From a virus: a stretch of DNA of 41,129 bases. The notes beneath the pieces were generated by a model. The model had not been told where the DNA came from. It made no database searches and saw only the letters and a program-made list of their open reading frames with translations. The stretch lies in IMG/VR virus record IMGVR_UViG_3300030117_002062, positions 1 through 41,129 of that record. The stretch is one strand, 5' to 3'. A program made the translations under genes and the position numbers. Of the stretch, positions 1-41,129 are shown piece after piece. Each line of letters opens with the position of its first letter. The first letter of the stretch is position 1.

Positions 1-117
1 CAATATCCCAGGATTTGGTACTGTCTTCGTAAGAGATATCGACCAAGATGCAAACGCTAGAATTGGAAAAGCAATTTATATGGAGATGGGATTCGAGTTC
101 GGACCTCCTTCATATCA
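1..117. repeat. Contig-end overlap, left copy (pairs with 41013-41129)
   Basis: Bases 1-117 align without gaps to 41013-41129, with one mismatch (19 T against 41031 A). The overlap lies inside the capsid gene and keeps its frame. This is best read as circular closure of an assembled genome, giving 41,012 unique bases. It is not a biological terminal repeat, which would not normally sit inside the MCP gene. Confidence 0.9.
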
Positions 118-21881: not shown

Positions 21882-22000
21882 TGGCTAGAGTAAGTTGGTT
21901 GTGGAAGGGTAAAAGATACTATGGCACGCTTATTAGAGAAACTAAAACACATAAGTTTGCAAGAACTAAAAATGGCAAAATAAAGAAAATAAAAAAATAA
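21881..22000 (+). CDS. Small basic protein directly before terminase (39 aa)
   Basis: Runs from ATG 21881 to TAA 22000, overlapping both neighbours by TAATG. The product is MARVSWLWKGKRYYGTLIRE followed by a Lys-rich end. It is the fourth member of a coupled chain leading into the terminase gene. A packaging-related role is suggested only by location. Confidence 0.6.
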   Translation: MARVSWLWKGKRYYGTLIRETKTHKFARTKNGKIKKIKK

Positions 22001-23907
22001 TGCCAAAAAATGTAATCTGTGCTTTGGAGGGGTGTACAAGTACGCTACCTCCGAAGCGTAGAAAATACTGCTCGGACAAGTGCAGTAATCACGCAAAAGT
22101 AAATAGATACAGGGCAAAGAAAAAAGGCACTACATATAGCGAACCTGTCAAACCAATAAATCTAGAACGTAAGTCTGCATCTATACGAAGAGGAGAACTG
22201 TACGATAAATTTATGGTAGAAGGTCATGCAAAAGATTTAATACTTAGTCACGCAACTATGCAAGAAGTAGCAGATATGTTGGGTTGTAGTGAAGGTCACG
22301 TATCTAGAATGCTTGCAGCATACAGAGAAGATTTGTTAACAGAACAAGAGCAAAGGGACTGGGAGACACCTCAGGAGGCCATAGAATCGCTTGAGACGTT
22401 TAAAACTTTCAGAGATAGGTATTTCCTCACAGAGAAAGGTAAACCCTTTGAAACAGCAGATTTCCATATGAATTGGATAAATAGCATATTAGATGCCATA
22501 GATACAGGTGGGCAACAAATGATACTAAGTCCACCACGTCATGGCAAAACAGAACTGCTAATACACTTTTGTGTATGGTTGATTTGTAAGAATCCTAACA
22601 TTAGAATTATGTGGGTAGGAGGTAATGAAGACATTGCAAAGAACTCAGTTATGTCAGTACTTGACACATTGGAAAACAACAGAGGGCTTATTGACGATTT
22701 CACAGGACCTAGGGGAAGTTTCAAGCCTAAAACGAGGACGGGCAAGAGCTGGTCATCAGGCGGTTTTACAGTATCAACTCGTTCCGTTTCAGGAATTAAA
22801 TCCCCAACAATGGTTGGGCTAGGTCGTGGGGGTAAAATACTTTCTCGTGACTGCGATATTATTATTGCTGATGACATAGAAGACCACTCATCTACAGTAC
22901 AACCTGCTGCTAGAAACAACACAAAGAACTGGTGGACTACTACATTAGGTAGTCGTAAAGAGGAACATACAGCTATGGTTGTTATAGGTTCTAGACAACA
23001 CCCTGATGACTTGTACTCTGCATTATTAGAAAGCAACGCCTGGGAATGCATAGTAGAAGAAGCTCATAGTGCTGAATGTATGATACCTGAAGATGCTATA
23101 GAGGAACACGAAGACTGTATGTTATGGACAGGATTTAGAAGTTACAAATGGCTTATGTCAAGAAAAGCAGATGCACAAACTACAGGTGGACTAGCTAGAT
23201 TTGAAATGGTGTATTTAAATAAAGCATTTCAAGCTGGTGCTGTTTTGTTTAGGCCTGATGCTATTGAAGCGTGTTACGATTATAGCACAAAGATAGGTGA
23301 CGTTCCACCAAGAACTAGACTTATTGCAGGCCTTGACCCTGCTGCTACAGGATATCAAGCAGCTTTCTTATGGTCAGTATCTGTAGAAGGTAATAGTCTT
23401 AATATGCAGTTAGTAGATTTAGAAAATCATAAAGGTGGTGGTATAGCAGAAGCATATAGAATTATAGAAGATTGGTATCTAAGATATCATTGTTACCACT
23501 GGGTTATAGAAGAAAACAACTTTCAAAAAGCTATACGACAAGATTCTACTATTAGAGAACTATGTAACAACACAGGTATTATTCTAGACGGACATGAAAC
23601 ATACAAAAATAAATGGGACGACCAAATGGGTGTAACAACTTTAGTACCTTTGTTTGAAGAAAGAAAAATTGTATTACCTTATGCTGATGCAGACTCACAA
23701 TATAAAACTACAATGTATAAAAAACAATTAGTATCTTTTGCAAGTAAATCACGCTATGCTAAATCAGATTTAGTTATGGCTAGTTGGTTTCCTATGAAAG
23801 AAATAAGAAAAATGTTAAAACAAACAATATCAGAAATGGGTGTTGATTATGAGCCAAGTTTTGGTAATTATGATATGATTGACATAGATACGTCCCCTTG
23901 GAGTTAA
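22000..23907 (+). CDS. Terminase large subunit with extra N-terminal zinc and HTH domains (635 aa)
   Basis: The ATPase part has Walker A SPPRHGKTE (177-185) and Walker B DIIIADD (286-292). The nuclease part has LIAGLDPAATG (D446) and VIEENNF later. These power and cut DNA during packaging into the head. In front lies an unusual N-terminus: a Cys4 site (C7, C12, C24, C28) and a helix-turn-helix (ATMQEVADMLGCSEGHVSRM, about 88-107). No separate small subunit gene was found, so this N-terminal region may provide DNA recognition. ATG 22000 is fixed by a TAATG overlap. At 635 aa it is longer than many terminases because of this extension. Confidence 0.93.
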   Translation: MPKNVICALEGCTSTLPPKRRKYCSDKCSNHAKVNRYRAKKKGTTYSEPVKPINLERKSASIRRGELYDKFMVEGHAKDLILSHATMQEVADMLGCSEGHVSRMLAAYREDLLTEQEQRDWETPQEAIESLETFKTFRDRYFLTEKGKPFETADFHMNWINSILDAIDTGGQQMILSPPRHGKTELLIHFCVWLICKNPNIRIMWVGGNEDIAKNSVMSVLDTLENNRGLIDDFTGPRGSFKPKTRTGKSWSSGGFTVSTRSVSGIKSPTMVGLGRGGKILSRDCDIIIADDIEDHSSTVQPAARNNTKNWWTTTLGSRKEEHTAMVVIGSRQHPDDLYSALLESNAWECIVEEAHSAECMIPEDAIEEHEDCMLWTGFRSYKWLMSRKADAQTTGGLARFEMVYLNKAFQAGAVLFRPDAIEACYDYSTKIGDVPPRTRLIAGLDPAATGYQAAFLWSVSVEGNSLNMQLVDLENHKGGGIAEAYRIIEDWYLRYHCYHWVIEENNFQKAIRQDSTIRELCNNTGIILDGHETYKNKWDDQMGVTTLVPLFEERKIVLPYADADSQYKTTMYKKQLVSFASKSRYAKSDLVMASWFPMKEIRKMLKQTISEMGVDYEPSFGNYDMIDIDTSPWS

Positions 23908-25683
23908 ATGGCAGTTGAAGTAAGAAACGCAAAAGAAGTTATTGACAGAGTAGCACATCTAAGATATGAACATCAGAGTGCTTTAGTAGATAGATATAGG
24001 TTTAAATCTATTGTCAATGGTGGTGCTGCTGGTATACAAGAACTTCTAGGTTCAAAGTTTTTAAATGCAAATCAAACTAATGACATTCCTATTCCTAACC
24101 TTATGGCTAGTGGATTAGAAAGATTATCACAAAAAATAGGTAGAAGTCCAAATGTCAAAGTAGATATATTTAATGCAAAAGATTCTACACGTGCTAAACA
24201 ACGTAGAGATAAGTTAGAAAGAATTATACACGCGTATGATGACATGTCTGACTTAAAATCAAAGTTACCTCAAGTAGCAAGATGGTTACCTGGCTACGGT
24301 TTTGCTGTATTTATTATTACAACAAAACGTGCTAACAATGGTGCTATATATCCGTCAGTAGAATTACGTGACCCATACGACTGTTATTTTGGCTATGGAT
24401 ATGATGAGCCTGAGGACTTAGGTGTAGTAAAAACAATACCTAAAGATGTGTTAATAGAAACATATCCTTACCTCAAACCAAAGTTTGCTACTTTAGAAAA
24501 AGGTAAAAACCAAACAACAAGTTCCTTTAACTACGGTATTCTCCACAATCAAACTGGAGATGACGAAGGTAGTTGGGAAAGTATGAGAGATATCGGTGAA
24601 ACTGTAGTTGAATATTACAACCAAGATGGTACATACATTGTACACCCTGGCTTTAACGAGATTCTCGAATTTGTTCCGAATCCTCTCATATCAGGACCAC
24701 AGTTTGTAGTTGCAAAGAAATATTCTTTCGACAAAATACAAGGCCAATTCGACCAAGTTATAGGACTTATGTCTTCTATGGCAAAGATGAATGTTATGTC
24801 AATTATTGCTATGGAAGATGCTGTATTTACAGAAACAAATGTTGTTGGTGAATTAGAATCAGGACAATATAGAAAAGGTAGATTTGCAATAAACTATCTA
24901 TCTCCTGGTTCACAAGTATCTAAACCTGTAAGTAATTTACCTTATCAGTTATTTGAAATGATAGGAAGAATAGAACGTCAACTCCGTGTAGTCTCAGGCT
25001 ATCCTGTACAAGATGATTCTATATCTCCTAATAGTTTTGTAACAGGTAGAGGCCTTGAAGAATTACAAAGCGGTGTAAACATGATGGTACGAGAGTATCA
25101 AGAAGTATTACAGAAGTCTTTACAGTTAGTTGACCAAAGAAGACTAGAACTAGACGAAGTATTATTTGCTGACAATCCTAAACCTATTGCAGGTTATTAC
25201 AGGGGTGCAGCATTTTCTGAGAACTATAGGCCTAGTAAAGATATACAAGGTAATCATAGAACTAGACGTGTTTATGGTGCTATGGCTAGTTTTGATGAGC
25301 CACAAAAAATAGTTACAGGTTTACAGTTGTTACAAGCAGGAATTATAGATAGACAAACATTACAAGAAGAAATGGACGGTTTAGAAAATATAACTGCTAT
25401 AAACGATAGAATTACAAAAGAAAAAGCAGAAAGAGTATTGTTTGAGTCATTGTTGCAAAGAAGTCAACAAGGAGACCAAGGTGCTTTACTTGCTATAGTA
25501 GATATATTTAACAAACCTGCACAAATGGGTGATGTACTTAAATTATATTTTACTCCGCAAGAACCACAAATGTCTCCTGAAGAAGAAGCGTTTGTACAAA
25601 CTCAAGCAGGACAAGGACAAGGACCAGCATTACCACAACAGCCACCTAGCTTACAACAAGCTCTAGGTATGATTGGAGGGTAA
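23908..25683 (+). CDS. Portal protein (591 aa)
   Basis: Directly follows the terminase stop with no gap. A 591-aa length and location fit a phage portal, the dodecameric ring through which DNA enters. Features include RYEHQSALVDRYRFKSIVNG near the start, an RDPYDCYFGYG beta segment and long helices (about 285-420) like the portal stem and wing. The C-terminus is Gln/Pro-rich (QEPQMSPEEEAF). No motif is unique, so the call rests on context, length and secondary structure. It overlaps the next gene by TAATG. Confidence 0.85.
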   Translation: MAVEVRNAKEVIDRVAHLRYEHQSALVDRYRFKSIVNGGAAGIQELLGSKFLNANQTNDIPIPNLMASGLERLSQKIGRSPNVKVDIFNAKDSTRAKQRRDKLERIIHAYDDMSDLKSKLPQVARWLPGYGFAVFIITTKRANNGAIYPSVELRDPYDCYFGYGYDEPEDLGVVKTIPKDVLIETYPYLKPKFATLEKGKNQTTSSFNYGILHNQTGDDEGSWESMRDIGETVVEYYNQDGTYIVHPGFNEILEFVPNPLISGPQFVVAKKYSFDKIQGQFDQVIGLMSSMAKMNVMSIIAMEDAVFTETNVVGELESGQYRKGRFAINYLSPGSQVSKPVSNLPYQLFEMIGRIERQLRVVSGYPVQDDSISPNSFVTGRGLEELQSGVNMMVREYQEVLQKSLQLVDQRRLELDEVLFADNPKPIAGYYRGAAFSENYRPSKDIQGNHRTRRVYGAMASFDEPQKIVTGLQLLQAGIIDRQTLQEEMDGLENITAINDRITKEKAERVLFESLLQRSQQGDQGALLAIVDIFNKPAQMGDVLKLYFTPQEPQMSPEEEAFVQTQAGQGQGPALPQQPPSLQQALGMIGG

Positions 25684-26171: not shown

Positions 26172-29100
26172 ATGCCATTTGTATTTAATAATCTAAACCA
26201 AAAATTAGAAAACGCTCAGATAGAAGAGGCAGAACTACAATCTAAACGTATAGCTGCTTTAGGTAAACAATTAGAAGAAGACCCTGCACCTGTAGAAAAA
26301 TTATCTAGTTTTGTAGATAAATATAATTGGTTGCCAAAAGATATACTAGCTGGTTTAGGCATAGCTTCTTTAACTAATCCTGCAATAAATTTAGATGACC
26401 AGGAACCATTTGTAGGAGATTTAGTTCGTGCATGGACTAAACATAGTAAAGAAAATGCAAGTAGATTAGGAGCTTTAACAAAAGGTAGTATCAGAGGTTT
26501 GTTTGTAGGATTTGATGCTGCAGCAGAAAGAATATTAAAAAGACCTATACAAGCTGCAGGTGGTGTTTATACAGGAGAAAATATAAATCCTACTGTAGCT
26601 TTATTTGATATTATTCCTGGTTTAGGTTTTACTTTAGCAAAAGGTTTAGGCATGACTGATATGTCTTACTCTGAATTTTTTACTAAAAGAGAACAGAAAT
26701 TACAAGAGTTAGGTCCTACTGTAGGAGAACTTGCAGTTAAAAAATTAGCAGCAGGAGAAAAAGTAAACTTAGGCACAGGTTTCTTTGGTAATTCTACAAT
26801 GGCAGAAGATACAACAGTTTACGAAGAAATATCAAAACAAACACAAGACCCTGAAATTTTAGAAAGTGCACGTAAGTTAATACAAGAACAATTAGGTGAC
26901 CCTATAACTATAGAAGAAAGAAAAAGGGTAAATGCTAATAGTTATAAATTTGATGATGGAAATATAAGACCTATATCTCCTGGATTGTTATTTGCACATA
27001 ACTTTGTATCTCCTTCTGAAAAAGGATACAACATGATATCAGGATTAGTAGATGGTATTTTTACTTTAGGTCTTGACCCAGCTAACTTGGCTGGTGGATA
27101 CTTTGCTAAAGCAGGTAGATTAAAAAAATCACTTAACCCTAATGTAGTTAAGAATAGATTTATTACAGGTAGATTAGCTAGAAAGATGGTACATGTACCT
27201 AATTCAAAAGAATATCTTAGTAGTCCTGCTGTAAGAGAAATAGCTGCTATAGGTGCTAAAGCTAAAGACATAAGAGTTCAAAGACAGTTGTTAAGAGACC
27301 AAGTCAAGGACCCTAAAACATTAAGAAGACTTATAGATGCAGAAACACCTGACGAATGGATTCAAGCTATTGATGACTATGGATTAAAGAACATAGATAA
27401 ACGATTTGAAAAATCAAGCAAGTTTCACGTAGATTACAAAGACGGAGAAAAAATATTAAAGATGTCTCCTGAACATTTTAAACAAAGAAGAGTAGTCGAT
27501 TTATATAAACAAAGATTTAATTTGTTTACAGATACATTACCTACAGGTGGTTTAAAAGATTATTCTATGAGATTTTCTAAAAGTGTTTTGTCTAGTCCTG
27601 TAGGCAGGGCTATAAAAGATTTACCTCAAACTACATTAAACGCATCTGATTTACCTGAAGTAGGTATGTTGTTAGATGATTGGTTAGATTTTATGAATGC
27701 TCCTATGGCAATGAGAAATAGTTTAAATAAAAAAATGGTTGATTGGATTGACCAATATAATTTTAGAGCACAAATGGCAGCAGATTATAGAGCAGGAATA
27801 CTTACAGATGTTGATATAGATATGATTAAAGAAGCGTCACCAAGTTTAAGAAATATAAATCTAAAACGTGACCCTTCTTTAGTATCTGTTAGAAGTCAAA
27901 TACAAGACATGATTACAGGTGATAATCAAATGTCAGGAATACTTTATAAAGATAAAGATGGTAATGCAGTTCGTCATACAATATTTGGTTGGTTTGACGA
28001 TTGGGCAGAATCACAAGGACTACCACCTATAGCTTTAAAAACAACAAGAGATTTGATTGCTAATACTAACGAAGGTAAAAGAGCGTATCTTGTAGATAGA
28101 TTAGGTAAACCTGAATTTTTTCCTGGCACTGCTACTGGTAAAGGTACAGATGCAATAATAAAAAATGTACAAGAAGAAACACTTAAAGCATTACCTACTG
28201 CTTCTAAACTTACAGAGTATTTATCATACGCAATCACAATGCCTGACCCAAGAGAATTATCTAGGTATTTAGGAAATGTACGTAACTCATTTGCTTTTAT
28301 GGCAACTCTAGGAGCTAAAACAGAATTTCCTAGAGCTTTAATAATGGCAGAAAAAAGACCAGGACAATTAACAGAAGAAGTTGCTACAGGTTTTTTAAGA
28401 AAACTAGGTAGAGAAACACGTAATATGCTTAAGTATAAAATTACTGATGAAGGTATAGAACAAGCAACATTATTAAAAGTATTAAACAAATACATGACTA
28501 AAGCATGGAAGCCTTTAGCTTTGTTAAGATTTGCTTGGACACTTAGAGTTGTAGGCGAAGAACAAATGCGTATGTGGGCTTCTGACTTAGATAATGTATT
28601 TACATCTCCTATATCATATTTTTCTTATTGGTTCGGAGACAATGCTCCTATGAAAACTTTAGGTGGCAATATGCAAAATGCTATGAAATATAAAGCTGCT
28701 ATGTCAAAAGGTCATGGTGGTTTTATGGGTGTTAATCATTTTGGTAGAGATAGGGTGTTTGAAACAGTAGATAAATCTAGTAAAAAGTATGGTAGTTATT
28801 TAGCAAACAATCATTTGTTATATATTAATGATGCACTAGCACAAGATTTGTTTCCTGCTGCTATAGATATAACTGGTAAAAAATTAGATTTAGGTGATGC
28901 AAAAGTAATATTTCAAAGAGAATCACTTCCGTTTAATAAAAAACAAATTAATGCAATCATAGGTGACAATCAAGAAGTAGTACTAGATAAAACTGTAGGA
29001 GACTTCTTAGCAGACTTAAGAGACGGCCTTGTAGTAAGTGATGTAGAAAAATACGCAAACTTAGATAAGACTGTAGAAAAAATACTAAGAAGAGAACTTG

Positions 29101-32100
29101 AGTATTTAACTCAAGGCTTTCAAAAAAATATGAACTTAACTTTTAGACCTGCAGCGATAATAGCTAAATTAATGAAAGTAAAAGCTAATGCAAAAATGTT
29201 TGATGGCTTTAGTAAAAATTTAGTTTTAGATGAAGTAAGAAGAGTATTAGATGATTATGCAGTAACTAACTCCCCTACTGTAAAAGAAATACCGCTTAAA
29301 TCTATACCTGCAAACTATGAGTTTGTACTAGATAAACTTGCAGACGAGGGTACTACTAAACTTCTTGGTACAGGTGCTGTAGGTGACATTGTAGGTATAC
29401 CTAATAAAAAAGGTCAAGTTAGTTATTACAGAGTAGATAGGGTAGATGTATTAAAACAAAAAGTTTCGCCTGACGAAGAGTTTGCTTTAACTTTACAAAG
29501 AGCACAAGAAGTATTAGAAGGAGATGGTTATACAAAATCTGAAGTTAATAAATTACTAGGTGGTATTAGAGCAGGTAAACAAAAATTAAATAAATCAGAT
29601 ATTGAAGCAATTAAACAAGACGTAGATAGTTTAATTGGATATGCTGCAGTTAATGACCCTATTACAAGAATAAAAAGGGGAGATAAAAATGTATTAAAAA
29701 TAACAGACAATGTATTTAAAACAAAAGAAGGAATAATAGATTTAAATACATTTGAATATATTATAGTAAAAGATGGTCTTGTAGATATGAAAAAATTTGC
29801 AGATGCTGTAGGAGATGATGTAGCTGCAAAAAGAATAGAGCAATTAAATCATTTAGGTGCATCAAATGCAGAAAGCTATTTAAGAGAAATATTATATTAT
29901 GGTTTTGGTAAAAATATAGCAGGCAAACAAGTAAGACAACCTAAAAGATTTTTTACAGTTCGTGCAACAAAAGTTAATGGTATTGCACGTACAAAAATAA
30001 AACCAACTAAATTAGGTCAAAAAGTTATTGACTTAGGTCTTGTAAGTAAAGCAGAAGATTTAGAATTATTTGCTAAAAATGGTTCAGGAATAACAGCTCA
30101 AGCATTAAAAGTATATGGTGCAAGATTAGAAGATTTAGTCAAAAAAAATATTAAATTACTTGACCCTGCCGAATTAGGTGAAGAAATATTAGAAGATTTA
30201 ATTAGAGGTAATAAAATAATAAATGGTCAAATAGATTCTTTATTAAGACAAAACACAATACTTACACTTACTCCAACAGAAAAAAAATCATTTAACTTTG
30301 CTACTGATTTAGTAGAACAAAAAGTTGCACAAGTAATATCAGGTGGTCAGACAGGTGCAGACATAGCTGGACTTAAAATAGCTGCAGAAAAAGGAATACC
30401 TACAGGTGGTAGGCTACCTAGAAGGTATATGACTGAAGATGGTCCTAACTATTCTTTACAAAGTAGATATGGTTTAGTACCTGATACTAATCCATTAGAT
30501 TCTCAAACACTTGCAAATAAAGGCATTATTCCAAAAGGTCCATACAGTAAAGCAAAATGGAATAGAAAGAAAAAACAATGGACTGATGAAGTAGATGGTG
30601 AAGAGTTTGTATTAGATTTAAAAAAAGATGCTGGTAAAATAGCAGGTTTTGAATATAGAAGTCGTGCTATAAAAAATGTTGACCAAGCACATGTAACAAT
30701 AATTCTAACTAAAGCAGGTGTAGAAGCTACAGGAACTAAATCTACATTTGAGTATGCAGTCAACAGAAGGTGGGGTAAAGGTAAAGATAAAACAGGATAT
30801 ATATATCAAGATGATGACATATTGTTTCCTGATAAAGCAAAACATAAAGTGTTTTCAAAAAATGTTTCTGATGCAAGAACTGATTATTCAAAAAACAAAG
30901 ATGTAATTGTTATAAACATAGATAAATTTATAGCTGATGGTGGAGTAGTAGACGCAGACACAATGCAAAGAATTGATTTACTTTTGTCTAAATATGATTC
31001 GCCTATTGTAAATATAGCTGGTCCTGCAGAAACTAGAATAACACCTGTATTAAAAGAAAAAGTTCCTGAAGTAGGTAAAAGAAAATATGTACAAGATGAA
31101 CTTACCTTAGCAGTTGACAATACAAAAGCTGTAGAAGATGCTAAAAGTAAGTTGCCTGCGTTAAAAAAAGATTTATCTAAATTAGAAAAAGATTACAAAC
31201 AAGTTGAGATTGATTTACAAAATAGAATTAGAGCTATCCAAGGTAAAGATAGTAAATTAAAATTTAATCATTTAAAAATTAATGTTCCGTTTGGTAAACA
31301 AAAAGAAATACTTGCAAAAGGTGATGGTGATGTAGCTCAAGTAAAAGCTAAAACTATACCTAGTGGAAAATTAGAAGACACAAAATTATATTTACCTGAT
31401 GAAATTATGAGTGAAATAAAAAAGACATGGGTAAAGAAAGACAGTGCAGGTAATGTTATTAGTAAATTAGATAAAGGTGAATTAAAAATAGTTGAAGAAG
31501 CATTACAAAATTCTTTAATTATTTTTAGACAGAAAGCTCGTAAGTATAGTGAAATAGAAAGATTACAAAAGGTTGTTGATGCTGATGGTGCATTTCTACC
31601 TAGCGGTCAAAGTGCAAGGCTACAGTATACAGACTCAGAATTACTTAGACCATTTGAAAATAAAGTAGCAGCTGCCTTAGAACAAATACTTGAAGGTTCT
31701 AGAAAATCTAGACATGCAGATAGTTTTGAAGGTTTAGTAAGTAAGTATACAGGAGAAAACAGAGAGTACTTTAAAGAGTTAGCATCTGATTCTTTTGACC
31801 AAGCTAGAAAAGTTAAACAAGCAATATACGATAGTGACTTGTTAATAGAATCAGCTATGAAAGGTTATCTTGCTGATATACATTTATTAGCAGGTGGTGA
31901 CTACGATATTATTTTAAAAAATACAAATGATGTTAATTTTAGTTATCAAATAGAAGAAGGTAAAACATTACTTAAAAGTAGAAAGGACCCTAATCTTTCA
32001 GTAGAAGTAAAAGGTACAAATGCTAATCCTGATGCACCTGTAACAGTAAATATTGATGGTGAAAAGAAAGTATATAAAACTCTCAAAGAATTACAAGAAG

Positions 32101-34949
32101 CAAAGATTGGATTGTATCACGACTTTGTTCCTGAAAAATCTATACCTAAAAATCCTATGGGTAATAAAAGTTATAACTCTTTAGAAGAAATGTATGAAGA
32201 TGGTTATTACTTTGATTACAACATAACACAAACAGGAGACCAAGAAATGTTAAGAGTTATGGCTGGTGTTGACCCATTTAGAATTAATTACAAAGGAGGT
32301 ATGGTTGAAAAGTATGTTAGTCCTAACATGACACATACAGACAGAAGAGCCTATATTAAATGGTTAGAAACTAAAAAACATCTTGGACCTACAAGAGTTA
32401 AAGGTGCTAGGACAACTCCTACTACAAAAGAAGGATTAGGTACTGCATTAGACCAAGCTACAGAATATATGTTTGATTTGTTTATGTCAGGTCCAACTAA
32501 TATGTTTTCACGTTCTCCTGCATTTATGCAGTTTTATATGGACAAGATAAGACAACTTGCACCATTTGCAGATGAAGCTACAAAGAAAAGAATAGTAGCT
32601 GACTTTGAATTAGCTTGGGGTATTACAAAGAATGAAGGTGTAGATGTTGGATTAGTTAGACAGCTTAACGATAAAAGAAAAGATTTATGGTTTGATAGAA
32701 ACTTTAGACAAGAATTTTTGAAAGATATGGCTGCACCAAAGATAGATGAAGTATTTGATATAAAAGATATTCCTAAAGATAAACAATACACAATGAATTT
32801 TAATATGTCGCCTGCTGACAATATATACAATGAAGCAACTACAACTATGGATTTAGTTAGAAGTGGTAGAAGAAGGTCTACAACTAGAAAGTGGAAGACA
32901 TTACCTGCAAAGGGAGACATAATATCTTTTTCAGACAAGAATAACAATCGTATTTTAGTTAAAGTTACAGCAGTAAAAAGCTGGAAAGATGTTAAAGGTA
33001 GTGTGCAAGAGTTAACTAAGTGGTCTAAAGATGAAGGTTGGACTGTTACTTATGGACTTAAGAAAGCATTCTTTAATAAATACGACCCTAAAGATGTACA
33101 CAAAGTAGAGTTTGATTTATATACAGACAAGGTATATACAACCTTTGATGAAATAGATACTGTAGCTAAAGCATATGCATTAGAAGAAACAAAAAGATTG
33201 CTATACGATTTAGATAAACGTGGACAAATTACTGATGCTTTAAGATTAGTATTTCCTTTCGGTGAAGCATATAAAGAAATTTTAACTACACAGTTTAGAT
33301 TACTTAAGAACAATCCACAGAAATTACGTAAGGCAACTATAGCTATACAAGGTGCTAGAAGGGATTCCATATTTGGTTCTGACCCTAGTCATAATGAAGG
33401 TTTCTTTGCTAAAGACCCAATGACAGGTGAAGAAATGTATAACTTTACTGACCCTGGTGGTTTGCTTACAGGAATGGTTGTAGGAGATAGCGTAGATAAT
33501 ACAGGAGTAAGGCTTAATCTAAAAGGTTATGTTCGTAATTTAAATATGTTAACAACTACAATCCTTCCTGGTGTAGGTCCAGTAGTACAGATACCAGCAG
33601 CAGCTATATCAGGTGCAACAGAGTTTAGTAAACTTGGAGACTTGTTGTTTCCATATGGTAGGCCTGAAGTACGTTCAGGTTTAGCAGGGATATTAGATAT
33701 ACCTAAAGCATTTGCACAAGCATCTATTCCTTCTTACATGAGAAAACTGTTTACTGCATTTGGTAGAAACCCTGCAGGTAGAAGAGATGTAGATGGATTT
33801 GACCCTGGTAGTGACCCTGCTGGAGCATTAGCTTCTACTGTAAAAGATATATTAAAGGTTAGAGCATATGCTGGAACTGCAGACTTTTCTACCATAGAAG
33901 CACAGAATGCAGAAATAAAAAGTGCAACTAATGCAGCAAGGGTACTTACAGGTGTAAGAGCTGCAGTACAATTTATTTGGTTTACAGGTGCAGAACCTAG
34001 ATATGAAGCATTAGTTAGTCCTGGTGGTCAAGCATTCTTAGACCCAAGTGGTACAGAAGAGATAGACCCTGATGGACGTATGGTATCGTTTAATTCATTA
34101 GTTCAAGGATATTATAGATTATACAGTATGGCTGAAGAGTCTATAAGAAACAATGCTGAACTAGCTGGTCAAGACCCACAAATGATAGCTACTCAGGCTT
34201 ATATGACTTTGTTTGGTGATAACCCAATACCATTGTTAATTAGAAAGACAAGAGAAATAGAGCCATATCCTATGGGAGAAACAGGTTTAAAGTGGGCTAG
34301 AGAAAATAAACAAGCATTTGCTGAAGCACCGAACACTGCTGCTTTTGCTAGACCATATGAACCATATGACGAATTTAGTATTAGAGCATGGCGTGAAAGT
34401 ATATCAAAAGGCAAGAGAGTTGGTTTAACTCCTGAACAATGGATACATCTTAACAATCAAGCTATAGGTAGAATTGCAGAAACACATATCAGTAATGAAT
34501 TAGAGAATAATCCTAACTTTGCTTTATGGACACCTATGCAAAAGAATCACTATATGGCAAGTGTTAACTTTATGTTACAAGATTTATTCCCTGGATTTGG
34601 TTCACAACTTACTGCAGCAGGTCCAACAGATTTAGATACTAAGCTAAGAGAATTAAGAAGATGGAAAAATATACCTGGTCTAGGAGACTCACAAGCAGGT
34701 AAAGCATTAGAAAGTTATTTAAGGTATAGAGATTCTTTAATGGAGTTTCATAAACTACAGACAGGTAACCAACTTATAAGTATAGAAGGTTCACAAGCAT
34801 TAGCAGTTAGAAATGCTATGAGATTATTTGCTAATCAACTTATTATTCAATACCCTGAGTTTAGATATTTATATAGTAGTATATTATCAAGAGAATTAGA
34901 GGAAGACGAAAGAAGTGTACCTGACGGATTTAGGATACTAGGATATTAA
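26172..34949 (+). CDS. Giant inner virion protein with YpsA/SLOG domain, polyvalent-type (2925 aa)
   Basis: At 8.8 kb it occupies about a fifth of the genome. A SLOG domain of the YpsA/molybdenum-carrier type lies at about 1385-1625: VISGGQTGADIAGLKIAAEK (V1388), later NIAGPAETR. That family binds nucleotide-like ligands. Helical, membrane-contact-like segments occur near 270-320 and an ordered charged region near 2050-2600. The C-terminal part (FPFGEAYKEILTTQF, about 2360) resembles other large phage inner proteins. Proteins of this type, called polyvalent proteins, are thought to enter the host with phage DNA and protect it. Most regions have no recognised domain. The position between portal and lysozyme fits a packaged inner protein. 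Confidence 0.8.
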   Translation: MPFVFNNLNQKLENAQIEEAELQSKRIAALGKQLEEDPAPVEKLSSFVDKYNWLPKDILAGLGIASLTNPAINLDDQEPFVGDLVRAWTKHSKENASRLGALTKGSIRGLFVGFDAAAERILKRPIQAAGGVYTGENINPTVALFDIIPGLGFTLAKGLGMTDMSYSEFFTKREQKLQELGPTVGELAVKKLAAGEKVNLGTGFFGNSTMAEDTTVYEEISKQTQDPEILESARKLIQEQLGDPITIEERKRVNANSYKFDDGNIRPISPGLLFAHNFVSPSEKGYNMISGLVDGIFTLGLDPANLAGGYFAKAGRLKKSLNPNVVKNRFITGRLARKMVHVPNSKEYLSSPAVREIAAIGAKAKDIRVQRQLLRDQVKDPKTLRRLIDAETPDEWIQAIDDYGLKNIDKRFEKSSKFHVDYKDGEKILKMSPEHFKQRRVVDLYKQRFNLFTDTLPTGGLKDYSMRFSKSVLSSPVGRAIKDLPQTTLNASDLPEVGMLLDDWLDFMNAPMAMRNSLNKKMVDWIDQYNFRAQMAADYRAGILTDVDIDMIKEASPSLRNINLKRDPSLVSVRSQIQDMITGDNQMSGILYKDKDGNAVRHTIFGWFDDWAESQGLPPIALKTTRDLIANTNEGKRAYLVDRLGKPEFFPGTATGKGTDAIIKNVQEETLKALPTASKLTEYLSYAITMPDPRELSRYLGNVRNSFAFMATLGAKTEFPRALIMAEKRPGQLTEEVATGFLRKLGRETRNMLKYKITDEGIEQATLLKVLNKYMTKAWKPLALLRFAWTLRVVGEEQMRMWASDLDNVFTSPISYFSYWFGDNAPMKTLGGNMQNAMKYKAAMSKGHGGFMGVNHFGRDRVFETVDKSSKKYGSYLANNHLLYINDALAQDLFPAAIDITGKKLDLGDAKVIFQRESLPFNKKQINAIIGDNQEVVLDKTVGDFLADLRDGLVVSDVEKYANLDKTVEKILRRELEYLTQGFQKNMNLTFRPAAIIAKLMKVKANAKMFDGFSKNLVLDEVRRVLDDYAVTNSPTVKEIPLKSIPANYEFVLDKLADEGTTKLLGTGAVGDIVGIPNKKGQVSYYRVDRVDVLKQKVSPDEEFALTLQRAQEVLEGDGYTKSEVNKLLGGIRAGKQKLNKSDIEAIKQDVDSLIGYAAVNDPITRIKRGDKNVLKITDNVFKTKEGIIDLNTFEYIIVKDGLVDMKKFADAVGDDVAAKRIEQLNHLGASNAESYLREILYYGFGKNIAGKQVRQPKRFFTVRATKVNGIARTKIKPTKLGQKVIDLGLVSKAEDLELFAKNGSGITAQALKVYGARLEDLVKKNIKLLDPAELGEEILEDLIRGNKIINGQIDSLLRQNTILTLTPTEKKSFNFATDLVEQKVAQVISGGQTGADIAGLKIAAEKGIPTGGRLPRRYMTEDGPNYSLQSRYGLVPDTNPLDSQTLANKGIIPKGPYSKAKWNRKKKQWTDEVDGEEFVLDLKKDAGKIAGFEYRSRAIKNVDQAHVTIILTKAGVEATGTKSTFEYAVNRRWGKGKDKTGYIYQDDDILFPDKAKHKVFSKNVSDARTDYSKNKDVIVINIDKFIADGGVVDADTMQRIDLLLSKYDSPIVNIAGPAETRITPVLKEKVPEVGKRKYVQDELTLAVDNTKAVEDAKSKLPALKKDLSKLEKDYKQVEIDLQNRIRAIQGKDSKLKFNHLKINVPFGKQKEILAKGDGDVAQVKAKTIPSGKLEDTKLYLPDEIMSEIKKTWVKKDSAGNVISKLDKGELKIVEEALQNSLIIFRQKARKYSEIERLQKVVDADGAFLPSGQSARLQYTDSELLRPFENKVAAALEQILEGSRKSRHADSFEGLVSKYTGENREYFKELASDSFDQARKVKQAIYDSDLLIESAMKGYLADIHLLAGGDYDIILKNTNDVNFSYQIEEGKTLLKSRKDPNLSVEVKGTNANPDAPVTVNIDGEKKVYKTLKELQEAKIGLYHDFVPEKSIPKNPMGNKSYNSLEEMYEDGYYFDYNITQTGDQEMLRVMAGVDPFRINYKGGMVEKYVSPNMTHTDRRAYIKWLETKKHLGPTRVKGARTTPTTKEGLGTALDQATEYMFDLFMSGPTNMFSRSPAFMQFYMDKIRQLAPFADEATKKRIVADFELAWGITKNEGVDVGLVRQLNDKRKDLWFDRNFRQEFLKDMAAPKIDEVFDIKDIPKDKQYTMNFNMSPADNIYNEATTTMDLVRSGRRRSTTRKWKTLPAKGDIISFSDKNNNRILVKVTAVKSWKDVKGSVQELTKWSKDEGWTVTYGLKKAFFNKYDPKDVHKVEFDLYTDKVYTTFDEIDTVAKAYALEETKRLLYDLDKRGQITDALRLVFPFGEAYKEILTTQFRLLKNNPQKLRKATIAIQGARRDSIFGSDPSHNEGFFAKDPMTGEEMYNFTDPGGLLTGMVVGDSVDNTGVRLNLKGYVRNLNMLTTTILPGVGPVVQIPAAAISGATEFSKLGDLLFPYGRPEVRSGLAGILDIPKAFAQASIPSYMRKLFTAFGRNPAGRRDVDGFDPGSDPAGALASTVKDILKVRAYAGTADFSTIEAQNAEIKSATNAARVLTGVRAAVQFIWFTGAEPRYEALVSPGGQAFLDPSGTEEIDPDGRMVSFNSLVQGYYRLYSMAEESIRNNAELAGQDPQMIATQAYMTLFGDNPIPLLIRKTREIEPYPMGETGLKWARENKQAFAEAPNTAAFARPYEPYDEFSIRAWRESISKGKRVGLTPEQWIHLNNQAIGRIAETHISNELENNPNFALWTPMQKNHYMASVNFMLQDLFPGFGSQLTAAGPTDLDTKLRELRRWKNIPGLGDSQAGKALESYLRYRDSLMEFHKLQTGNQLISIEGSQALAVRNAMRLFANQLIIQYPEFRYLYSSILSRELEEDERSVPDGFRILGY

Positions 34950-36965: not shown

Positions 36966-38103
36966 TTTTAGCGAAGGTAATGTACCTAAACCTGACAAGG
37001 TAGGTAGAATCGGAAGTGTATTTTATTTCTTTTATCAGATACCCACAGAACTAACAGGCGGAGAAGTAGCATACATATCTTATACTGCACCAAGTGCATA
37101 TCAATATACAGTTGATACAACTAATAACGCAACACAAGCATTACTAAATCAATCATTTGATTCAGGTGACCATTTAGAAATAGAAGTCGGTGTAAGTCCT
37201 TTAGATACTTATGTAGATAGAATTAAAAAAGTAGCTAAAGTAAGACCTTATTTATTACAAAAAGAAACAGAGGGGGAAAACGAAGGGGAGTATGTTTTAC
37301 TTAGTTTATTTATTCAACAGTTGTTTGAACCAAATAAACCTATATCAGAAGAGGAGTACCTTGCATCATCAGCTATATATGCAAACATGTCTGATAGAGA
37401 AAAAGACTATCTAGAAGCAATTAGTTTAGGTGAAGATTCTGTTGCTTACCAAAACTTAATACAAAGTACAACAATAACATTATCTACTTTGTTGCGAACT
37501 GCTGGCATAACAGATATACCTGATGACGTACAAAATTTTTTATATACAAAATATTTGACAGGACAATACAGTTTAGATTTTTTAAATGAAAACATAAAAT
37601 ATTTAGCAACTCCTGATTTTGCTACACAATTTGACCCTGAGTTGAAAGAGTTAGTAGAAGGTAGAGGGCTAGATACTACCTCAACATTTAGAACTGCAGC
37701 TAAAACTACAGTAAATAAATACTTAGGTCCTTATGGTTTATCTCAACTTGATGATGAACAAATAGATAAATTAGGTCAAGTTTTGTCTCAACCTAATGGT
37801 CAAGAAATACTTAACAATGAACTACAAGAACAATGGGACTCACAGTTTCCAAATAGAAAAGGTAGCAACTATAGTGCTTCTTTTGCTCTAGTAGATAGAA
37901 TAGCTAGTCCTGTTTTAGGTTCTATAGATGAAGTTAAAGATGCAGGGTTGATAATAGATATGTTTAGTAAAGACAACAGCAATGATATTGCAACAGTAGC
38001 TAGAAAGTATGGACTACAAACTAATAACAATCAGACAGCTAGAATATTAGCTAACTCTGCTGCTAGGTCTTTTGGTACAACATATGGGAATGTGGACGTA
38101 TAA
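36949..38103 (+). CDS. Probable virion protein (384 aa)
   Basis: Unrecognised 384-aa protein. It starts with a beta-rich domain (GRIGSVFYFFYQIPTELTGG) and continues as helices (about 120-384). It overlaps the lysozyme end by 17 nt and the next gene by TAATG. It lies in a run of three long unrecognised genes between the giant protein and the scaffold. These are likely particle components, possibly of an inner core. No domain named. Confidence 0.65.
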   Translation: MSKPNDFSEGNVPKPDKVGRIGSVFYFFYQIPTELTGGEVAYISYTAPSAYQYTVDTTNNATQALLNQSFDSGDHLEIEVGVSPLDTYVDRIKKVAKVRPYLLQKETEGENEGEYVLLSLFIQQLFEPNKPISEEEYLASSAIYANMSDREKDYLEAISLGEDSVAYQNLIQSTTITLSTLLRTAGITDIPDDVQNFLYTKYLTGQYSLDFLNENIKYLATPDFATQFDPELKELVEGRGLDTTSTFRTAAKTTVNKYLGPYGLSQLDDEQIDKLGQVLSQPNGQEILNNELQEQWDSQFPNRKGSNYSASFALVDRIASPVLGSIDEVKDAGLIIDMFSKDNSNDIATVARKYGLQTNNNQTARILANSAARSFGTTYGNVDV

Positions 38104-39332
38104 TGGTAACTTTAGATGACGGACAATCAGTAGACGAAGTAATAAATAGAAAAAAGAAAAGTAAATCTAATACTAAAGCTAATCAAGAACTTCAATCAGA
38201 TGCTAAATTAAAAAGTATTGCTGCAGCAGAAGAAGCTAAACAAGCAAAAGATGCAGCAGCTAAAAGAGATACTCGTAGCGGCTTAGAAAAAGAAAGTGAA
38301 TTTATAAAAGATTTTGTAGGAAGAACTGATAAAACTACTACTACTACAGCAGCTGCAACTCCACCTCCACCTACAGCCACAGCCACAGGTGATGATGGTT
38401 CAGAGATTGCAATTAACATACCTGATTTTGACTTTAGTAATTTTGAAAGTTACTTCAATAGTTTATTTGAAAATAATTATTCACAACCTCCTGCATTTGA
38501 AGCACCTGAATTTATTCCTACTATAAAACAAGTAGAGCAATTAGTTCCATGGTTATCTCAGTCAGGTAATTTATTGCAAGTTTATCAAGATACTTGGTCA
38601 GAAACAGGTGACCCAAATTTTGCTTTGGCTGCAGTAAGAGATAGCGAAGATTACGATAACTTATTTCCTGGCAATAAAAGAGCTGATGGTTCTGTAAGAC
38701 ATAATGAGTCAGAATACAAAGCTATAGAATCAGGATATAAAAACGTAATTATAGAAAATGGTTTAAATCCTAAGTTATTTGAAAATAAATTTGGTGGTTT
38801 AATATCAGGTGCTATATCAGTAGCAGAGTTATCTCAAAGAGTAGGACTGGTAAGAAGAGCTATAGATGAAAACCCTGATTCAGATGAAGTACTTAAGTTT
38901 TATTCTGATAACTATGGTATAGAAATGAGTAAAGAAGGTTTGCTTGCAGCGTCTATTGACCCTGGCATGAGTGAAGAAATCTTTGCTCGTAAAATAACCA
39001 TGGCTGAAATAGGTGCTGAGGCTGCATCAGCAGGTGCTGCTATATCTTTCGGTACTGTATCAGAGTTGGCAAGTGCAGGGTTTACAGAGGAACAAGCAGA
39101 TTCTTTATTTACAAGAGCAGTAGAATCAGAAAAAACTTTATCAGCATTAGCGGCAAGTCAAGGAAGACAAGACTTAACAACAGAAGAAGTCGTAAGAGCT
39201 GAGGCTTTGAATGATGGTGAAACTCAACAAGAAATAGCTAGAATATTACAGCAATCTGCTTCACAAAGTTCCTTAAATGTAGGTGCAAGAAAAGTTCAAG
39301 GTGGAGCAGTTAGTGGCTTGACAGAGGTATAA
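38103..39332 (+). CDS. Probable virion protein with low-complexity linker (409 aa)
   Basis: Unrecognised 409-aa protein. The N-terminus is a Lys/Ala-rich helical region (residues 1-75). A Thr/Ala/Pro linker follows (TTTTTAAATPPPPTATATG, about 77-95). Helical domains then occupy the rest, with an Ala/Ser/Glu-rich final segment. It overlaps its upstream neighbour. Its last codons contain the -35 of the scaffold-capsid promoter. It may be an internal or scaffold-associated component. Confidence 0.65.
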   Translation: MVTLDDGQSVDEVINRKKKSKSNTKANQELQSDAKLKSIAAAEEAKQAKDAAAKRDTRSGLEKESEFIKDFVGRTDKTTTTTAAATPPPPTATATGDDGSEIAINIPDFDFSNFESYFNSLFENNYSQPPAFEAPEFIPTIKQVEQLVPWLSQSGNLLQVYQDTWSETGDPNFALAAVRDSEDYDNLFPGNKRADGSVRHNESEYKAIESGYKNVIIENGLNPKLFENKFGGLISGAISVAELSQRVGLVRRAIDENPDSDEVLKFYSDNYGIEMSKEGLLAASIDPGMSEEIFARKITMAEIGAEAASAGAAISFGTVSELASAGFTEEQADSLFTRAVESEKTLSALAASQGRQDLTTEEVVRAEALNDGETQQEIARILQQSASQSSLNVGARKVQGGAVSGLTEV

Positions 39333-40026: not shown

Positions 40027-41129
40027 ATGCCACAGATTCAAAGTGGGTCGTTAACAAACGACACAATTTATAGTCAGGTCATTAACAATTTCTCAGGTGA
40101 ACTATTTAAAGTTGGTGGTCAAAGAACACCTTTCTTGTCAGCAGTTGGAGGATTGAATGCAGGTAAAGTTATTCAATCATCTTACTGGCAAGTTCAAGTA
40201 GAAGACAACGTTGTTGTTTCTACTGAACCTGACAAGGCAAAAGAAGGTGCTTCACCAACAGAATACCTAGGACAAGATAGAGCTGCATATACATATGTAA
40301 CTCAGATTTTCCATAAAGGTGTTCAAATGACTTATTCAGCATTAGCAGGTACAAACAACCAAAACCCATTGACATTGAGTGCTAACATTGTAAATCAATC
40401 AGATGGTGATGGAACAACTACTGCTGGAGCTGCATTAGGTTTCTTTGATGGTTCCCCTGTTGTTGATGAGTTTGCTTTCCAAATGGAAAAAGCTATGGAA
40501 AAAGTAGCAAGAGAAGTAGAATGGTTTGCATTCAATGGTTCTTTCTCTGACGGTGCTAATGTCACCCCAGGTGCAGGAACTAGAGAAATGTATGGTATTG
40601 ACGTTTGGGTTTCCCTAAACAAAAATGCTAACAACGCTGCAGCCGTTAACCCTCTTGGTGGTAACTGTTACTACAACGATACAGATGGTGATGGAACAGG
40701 TTCTGCACAAGTTATCAGCTTTAAAACTATCGCTGAAACTTTGAAGAGAATGTATGATAATCATGCACCTATGACACAACCAGTATTGTGTGTTAGTCCA
40801 AAACAGTTACTTGACCTTAACAATGAACTTGTTAAAGGAACAGTTGATATTGCAGGAGCTATCCTACCTAGAGATAGAAATGTTGCTGGTATTGATATTG
40901 ACACAATCATAACCCCATTCGGTTCAATCGGAATGATGGTTCTTGACCCTAATATCATACCAACAGGTACTGCATTCATCTTAGACTTCGCTTACATTAA
41001 GCCAGTATTTACCAATATCCCAGGATTTGGAACTGTCTTCGTAAGAGATATCGACCAAGATGCAAACGCTAGAATTGGAAAAGCAATTTATATGGAGATG
41101 GGATTCGAGTTCGGACCTCCTTCATATCA
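40027..41129 (+). CDS. Major capsid protein, main part (continues at 1-142)
   Basis: ATG 40027 has AGGAG upstream. With 1-142 the gene encodes 375 aa. The plan, from MPQIQSGSLTNDTIYSQVIN through an extended N-arm and a central helix (AFQMEKAMEKVAREVEWFAF) to the C-terminal FVRDIDQDANARIGKAIYME, fits an HK97-fold shell protein as in SU10-like or marine podoviruses. Strong promoter and terminator fit very high expression. C-ending codons look commoner than in its neighbours, perhaps reflecting selection for translation. The 3' end is cut by the window and completed after the join. Confidence 0.9.
   Translation, partial: MPQIQSGSLTNDTIYSQVINNFSGELFKVGGQRTPFLSAVGGLNAGKVIQSSYWQVQVEDNVVVSTEPDKAKEGASPTEYLGQDRAAYTYVTQIFHKGVQMTYSALAGTNNQNPLTLSANIVNQSDGDGTTTAGAALGFFDGSPVVDEFAFQMEKAMEKVAREVEWFAFNGSFSDGANVTPGAGTREMYGIDVWVSLNKNANNAAAVNPLGGNCYYNDTDGDGTGSAQVISFKTIAETLKRMYDNHAPMTQPVLCVSPKQLLDLNNELVKGTVDIAGAILPRDRNVAGIDIDTIITPFGSIGMMVLDPNIIPTGTAFILDFAYIKPVFTNIPGFGTVFVRDIDQDANARIGKAIYMEMGFEFGPPSY
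41013..41129. repeat. Contig-end overlap, right copy (pairs with 1-117)
   Basis: Matches 1-117 without gaps except one synonymous base (41031 A, position 19 T; GGA and GGT both encode Gly). It shows that the sequence closes on itself inside the capsid gene. Confidence 0.9.

Follow-up and report, generated by a model that had tools for sequence, protein, structure and literature searches.

Results

We analyzed a 41,129-nt stretch of DNA from an IMG/VR virus record, hereafter referred to as the window, which contains a gene cluster in the order terminase, portal, carrier, lysozyme, and capsid. The cluster opens with the terminase large subunit (22000..23907, +; phrog_38) and the portal protein (23908..25683, +; profile match to the portal of Streptomyces phage Manuel, E = 2.3e-19). 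Directly 3′ of the portal gene, an open reading frame with an ATG start (26172..34949, +) encodes a 2925-aa protein, exactly as given in an earlier description of this DNA (the first-pass annotation). We refer to this protein, which consists of a frame and inserted modules, as the carrier. It is followed by a phage lysozyme (36282..36965, +; Pfam and PHROGs), a counterpart of Manuel gp14 (38103..39332, +; E = 4.8e-14), and a major capsid protein of the SU10 type (40027..41127, +; Pfam and PHROGs), which is truncated where the contig stops.

The cultured Streptomyces phages Manuel and Abafar share this gene order, with a 1646-aa protein (Manuel gp10, Abafar_00008) in the carrier position, and profile comparison matched the Manuel terminase, portal, gp14, and gp63 to the window. 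The Manuel protein is ortholog-like: its C-terminal frame aligns with the window protein over 493 columns (E = 5e-6), although it is much shorter and lacks the SLOG domain described below. Abafar is a podovirus, short-tailed by electron microscopy (PMC11536984).

The first and last 117 bases of the window (1-117 and 41013-41129) are identical at 116 positions; the record therefore probably represents an entire genome, about 41.0 kb long and circularly permuted. Two relatives (the contigs of L005/L010 and L027/L083) have two capsid-gene copies each, which on the L005/L010 contig lie about 41.2 kb apart by listed coordinates. The terminase large subunit has a CGNR zinc finger-like N-terminal stretch (residues 7-41, just below cut-off) followed by helix-turn-helix-like matches at residues 81-115; this part is perhaps a fused DNA-recognition part.

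The first-pass annotation had proposed a YpsA-like SLOG domain in the 2925-aa protein on the basis of VISGGQTGAD and NIAGPAETR, and both elements are in place: the signature loop SGGQTGAD, which includes the GxD/E ligand motif, at residues 1390-1397 (30339..30362, +), and NIAGPAETR at residues 1614-1622 (31011..31037, +). PF12694 (cpYpsA) matches the protein with 47.6 bits (E = 1.9e-12), above the curated Pfam cut-off of 26.2. A custom HMM made from 91 standalone cpYpsA proteins gave three collinear matches, at residues 1384-1438, 1493-1530, and 1575-1624, split by two lineage-specific loops (about residues 1440-1490 and 1540-1573). Together they score 88.9 bits, whereas no score above 6.6 was obtained when the 2925-aa protein was shuffled 500 times; these shuffles, together with independent relatives, rule out that the match arose by chance or as an artefact.

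Structure prediction produced the Rossmann-like fold expected of such a domain. The AlphaFold2 model of residues 1370-1640, built from 17 sequences, has a pLDDT of 69 and a pTM of 0.74, and the only PDB entry that Foldseek matched to it below 1e-3 is the cpYpsA protein 3IMK (E = 1.2e-5, probability 1.00, TM 0.62 by target length), which was also the only match from a PDB sequence search. It is near certain that residues about 1384-1624 (30321..31043, +) are a cpYpsA-type SLOG domain within a larger frame. Outside this domain almost nothing in the protein was recognized by Pfam, in line with the earlier view that the remainder mostly has no recognized fold, and no nucleic-acid enzyme domain was found in the protein by Pfam. 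The exception came from searching the protein in sections, which gave a sub-threshold ASCH-like stretch at residues 2226-2297 (32847..33062, +; 20.1 bits, Pfam cut-off 21.2).

The C-terminal part of the carrier is encoded by 148 IMG/VR stretches, 80 of which were retrieved for comparison. The full-length relatives measure between about 1630 and 3597 aa; the N-terminal part is missing from shorter open frames (1393 and 1629 aa), which possibly represent split genes. In L106, L110, and L154 the frame begins late, upstream of or inside the SLOG stretch, and the N-terminal part is missing, reflecting a split gene, a frameshift, or an assembly error.

Insertion sites were mapped onto L087, a SLOG-less relative of 1633 aa. 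The N-terminal frame of the window protein (residues 1-893; 26172..28850, +) is collinear with L087 residues 17-814. At site 2, about 1180 window residues stand against 168 in L087; the insertion (residues about 894-2014; 28851..32213, +) is absent from L087 and holds the SLOG domain and its flanks, X and Y. Frame block C1 follows (residues 2015-2143; 32214..32600, +), then site 3, where about 190 window residues face 35 in L087 and which includes the ASCH-like stretch, and finally the C-terminal frame, C2 (residues 2325-2912; 33144..34907, +), the most widely conserved part. Site 1 corresponds to about L087 residues 564-582 and is filled in the clade of L088, L091, L093, L097, L161, and L163; L088 and L093 have an additional insertion at site 2. 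The host protein is thus a conserved frame that extra domains enter at discrete sites.

SLOG occupies the site-2 insertion in the window, L002, L085, and L086, and in another clade it lies in the site-1 insertion, split by about 200-450 extra residues. It recurs in 22 of the 30 non-redundant full-length relatives at these two frame sites and is missing from the other eight, which rules out a one-off insertion in this contig. The tree built from the C-terminal frame groups proteins with SLOG at site 2 into one clade and those with SLOG at site 1 into a second, and SLOG-less clades are placed next to these. On an unrooted, long-branched SLOG tree, the site-1 domains, the site-2 domains, and all other sampled SLOGs each fall on one side of a branch. 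This topology would fit a single SLOG gain followed by relocation between sites, and two gains would also be compatible. Among the relatives without SLOG are L096, L124, and L136 (2019-2038 aa); an additional insertion in L096, following about residue 320, may mark a fourth site.

A model of the C-terminal frame (pLDDT 49.5) had no PDB match below E = 1 and is too uncertain in fold to use, and identity of this region with LPD38 was ruled out (hhalign probability 0.7 %). Because the frame gave no known fold, its likeness to ejection proteins would be one of position and size only.

In the comparison with L085, SLOG has a dN/dS of 0.20 and the ASCH-like stretch one of 0.16, both lower than the values of flank X (0.41) and flank Y (0.30). 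SLOG is under purifying selection. Within the GxD/E motif, the G and the D/E are retained in all 16 distinct loop strings of the family (14 from site 1 and 2 from site 2); SLOGs outside the family were picked for comparison by loop pattern, and the invariance of GxD/E among them is not evidence. For Bacillus subtilis YpsA, substrate binding by this motif has been predicted, and function is lost when the motif is mutated (PMC6459960). Matched by pattern, the window motif would correspond to YpsA G53/E55.

Neighboring loop positions drift in the site-1 clade (SGFYEGAE, TGGYEGVE, SNGGRGTE). This drift, the large coiled-coil-like inserts inside SLOG of the same clade, and the absence of SLOG from eight relatives would all suit a structural or assembly module that binds no signal and whose Rossmann fold provides a stable spacer or a surface for contacts. 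However, the window loop SGGQTGAD is fully intact, every loop version keeps GxD/E, and two further modules of the family described below also match large-phage records, which suits cargo over structure. We regard a purely structural SLOG as unlikely.

The suggestion that further domains may be hidden was borne out at the level of the protein family, where we found three kinds of module besides SLOG: ASCH-like, DUF7831, and phrog_9995. In the window and L086 the ASCH-like stretch occupies site 3; L088, L101, L112, L116, and L121 have it at site 1. L086 combines SLOG, phrog_9995, and DUF7831 in one protein, and the latter two stand at differing places in L086 and L093 (DUF7831 at residues 2021-2133 and 1841-1949, phrog_9995 at 1893-2006 and 642-763, respectively). 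Both match large-phage records; the phrog_9995 matches are from phiKZ-like phages and those of DUF7831 from alphaproteobacterial phages. By eye, DUF7831 has motifs (FGDN.AR.GKGGQA) that look macro-like. A DUF4326-like appearance of L086 residues about 2800-2850 received no support from Pfam, and one mixed alignment of SLOG and ASCH fragments (A4) was misaligned and left out of folding.

That SLOG shares its protein with other modules bears on a further explanation, in which it acts as a sensor or switch: a cytoplasmic nucleotide such as NAD would reshape the carrier and time DNA entry, processing, or the activity of a neighboring module. YpsA-clade SLOGs are described as ligand sensors, and phage fusions of SLOG with nucleic-acid enzymes have been read likewise (PMC9503650). 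Yet the window protein has no recognized effector domain besides the weak ASCH-like stretch, and the position of SLOG shifts relative to its neighbors, as would suit an independent module; we consider a sensor quite unlikely.

Beyond the carrier family, SLOG occurs within giant phage proteins without this frame (L181, L190, L195, L203, L214, L217, L241, and others); L197 and L280 also have a cpYpsA SLOG inside a giant protein. Some SLOG-bearing giant proteins additionally have ART-PolyVal, AAA_33/zeta-toxin-like, 2OG-Fe(II) oxygenase, or LPD38 domains. One of them, L181, differs in kind from the carrier and has ART-PolyVal; its SLOG is immediately followed by an ASCH-like stretch. The close cpYpsA matches found in cultured phages were confined to Maribacter phages, as a standalone gene, and virus Rctr197k.

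Standalone cpYpsA versions are common in phages and bacteria, and LOG-type relatives of SLOG cleave base-ribose bonds (PMC9503650). The domain might accordingly be an enzyme acting on host nucleotide metabolism, for example by N-glycosidic cleavage, in the service of phage replication rather than counter-defense. However, the window, L002, and L085 have His where 128 of 146 other SLOGs have a conserved Asp (L086 keeps the Asp), a change that makes catalysis unsure in the window lineage, and the few copies that would be packaged per cell fit an early signal better than bulk metabolism. Such a metabolic enzyme seems very unlikely.

Discussion

Our hypothesis is that the 2925-aa carrier resides inside the virion of a short-tailed phage and is probably ejected from it. 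Its frame (the N-terminal block, C1, and C2) would do the structural and ejection work, with a few sites tolerating inserted domains, and the SLOG domain at site 2 would enter the cell together with the DNA. There it would bind an NAD/ADP-ribose-type nucleotide, possibly cleaving a ribosyl bond, such that nucleotide-based host defense would be blunted before any phage gene is expressed. Large multidomain virion proteins have been proposed to be injected (PMC5512222), and viral YpsA-like SLOG domains have been proposed to act on host ADP-ribose-derived signals (PMC9503650).

As a whole, this reading of a virion carrier that delivers SLOG against NAD/ADP-ribose-type immune signals is tentative, with a little less than an even chance of being right; the interpretation given by the first-pass annotation is supported in part. 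Its parts are not equally secure. The carrier is very likely packaged in particles, SLOG probably binds a nucleotide, and entry of the carrier into the cell is on balance likely; an anti-defense role of SLOG is a possibility that we would not yet favor. For the carrier reading we count the identity and fold of SLOG; the position after the portal gene and the synteny with Manuel and Abafar; the discrete insertion sites, the lower dN/dS than in the flanks, and the retained GxD/E; and the recurrence of the SLOG-plus-ASCH pair in the ART-PolyVal protein L181. Against it we count the frame, whose model matched no known fold, the Asp-to-His change in the window lineage, and the drift of the site-1 loop beyond GxD/E, with which a structural role would be compatible as well.

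No account of SLOG in polyvalent-type virion proteins was found in the literature text searched. Because viral SLOG domains are called typically standalone (PMC9503650) and SLOG, YpsA, and ASCH are absent from the main text of PMC5512222, the combination of SLOG with an injected virion carrier appears not to have been described previously. A broader and rather doubtful extension would be that short-tailed phages of a widespread family share a single conserved protein of the virion that is ejected and delivers modules in general, its frame offering three or more docking sites at fixed positions. Recombination would exchange NAD/ADP-ribose-type modules (SLOG, ASCH-like, DUF7831, phrog_9995) at these sites, and counter-defense would arrive with the DNA as pre-made protein.

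The window SLOG resembles the cpYpsA family (PF12694; 3IMK) in sequence profile, signature loop, Rossmannoid model, and motif order, and differs in being embedded in a 2925-aa phage protein, in its two extra loops, and in the Asp-to-His change at one conserved site. The first-pass annotation had further likened the protein to the large phage polyvalent proteins of mixed domains. The likeness holds for its very large size, its inserted modules, and its place after the portal gene in the head/tail cluster of a portal-terminase phage (compare PMC5512222), but not for the characteristic domains: LPD, ART-PolyVal, MuF, and peptidase families had no match in the window protein (Pfam, whole protein to E = 1, sections to E = 10), and the carrier frame is a distinct conserved family. 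The SLOG, ASCH-like, and phrog_9995 modules are nonetheless common to the carrier family and the giant phage proteins L181 and L195, which have ART-PolyVal or LPD38 domains.

Like the T7 gp16-type ejection proteins and the N4 virion RNA polymerase, the carrier is of giant size and has its gene in the midst of those for head and portal, and domain swapping is known among ejection proteins (PMC8954989). Unlike them, it has no RNA polymerase or transglycosylase domain by Pfam, and RNA polymerase families had no match in it in PHROGs either.

Thoeris ThsA senses cADPR isomers via a SLOG domain, and the phage sponges Tad1 and Tad2 sequester such signals (PMC11204291, PMC12043709). The window protein differs from ThsA in having no SIR2, TIR, or macro family match (Pfam), and neither Tad1 nor Tad2 is among the PDB matches listed for the SLOG model. 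Phage factors known to block nucleotide immune signals, these sponges among them, are described as separate phage-encoded proteins. If our reading is true, a SLOG built into a virion protein would be active as soon as infection starts, ahead of the build-up of the immune signal, and the insertion sites would offer a practical handle for reading the modules that phages deliver, including the unassigned DUF7831 and phrog_9995.
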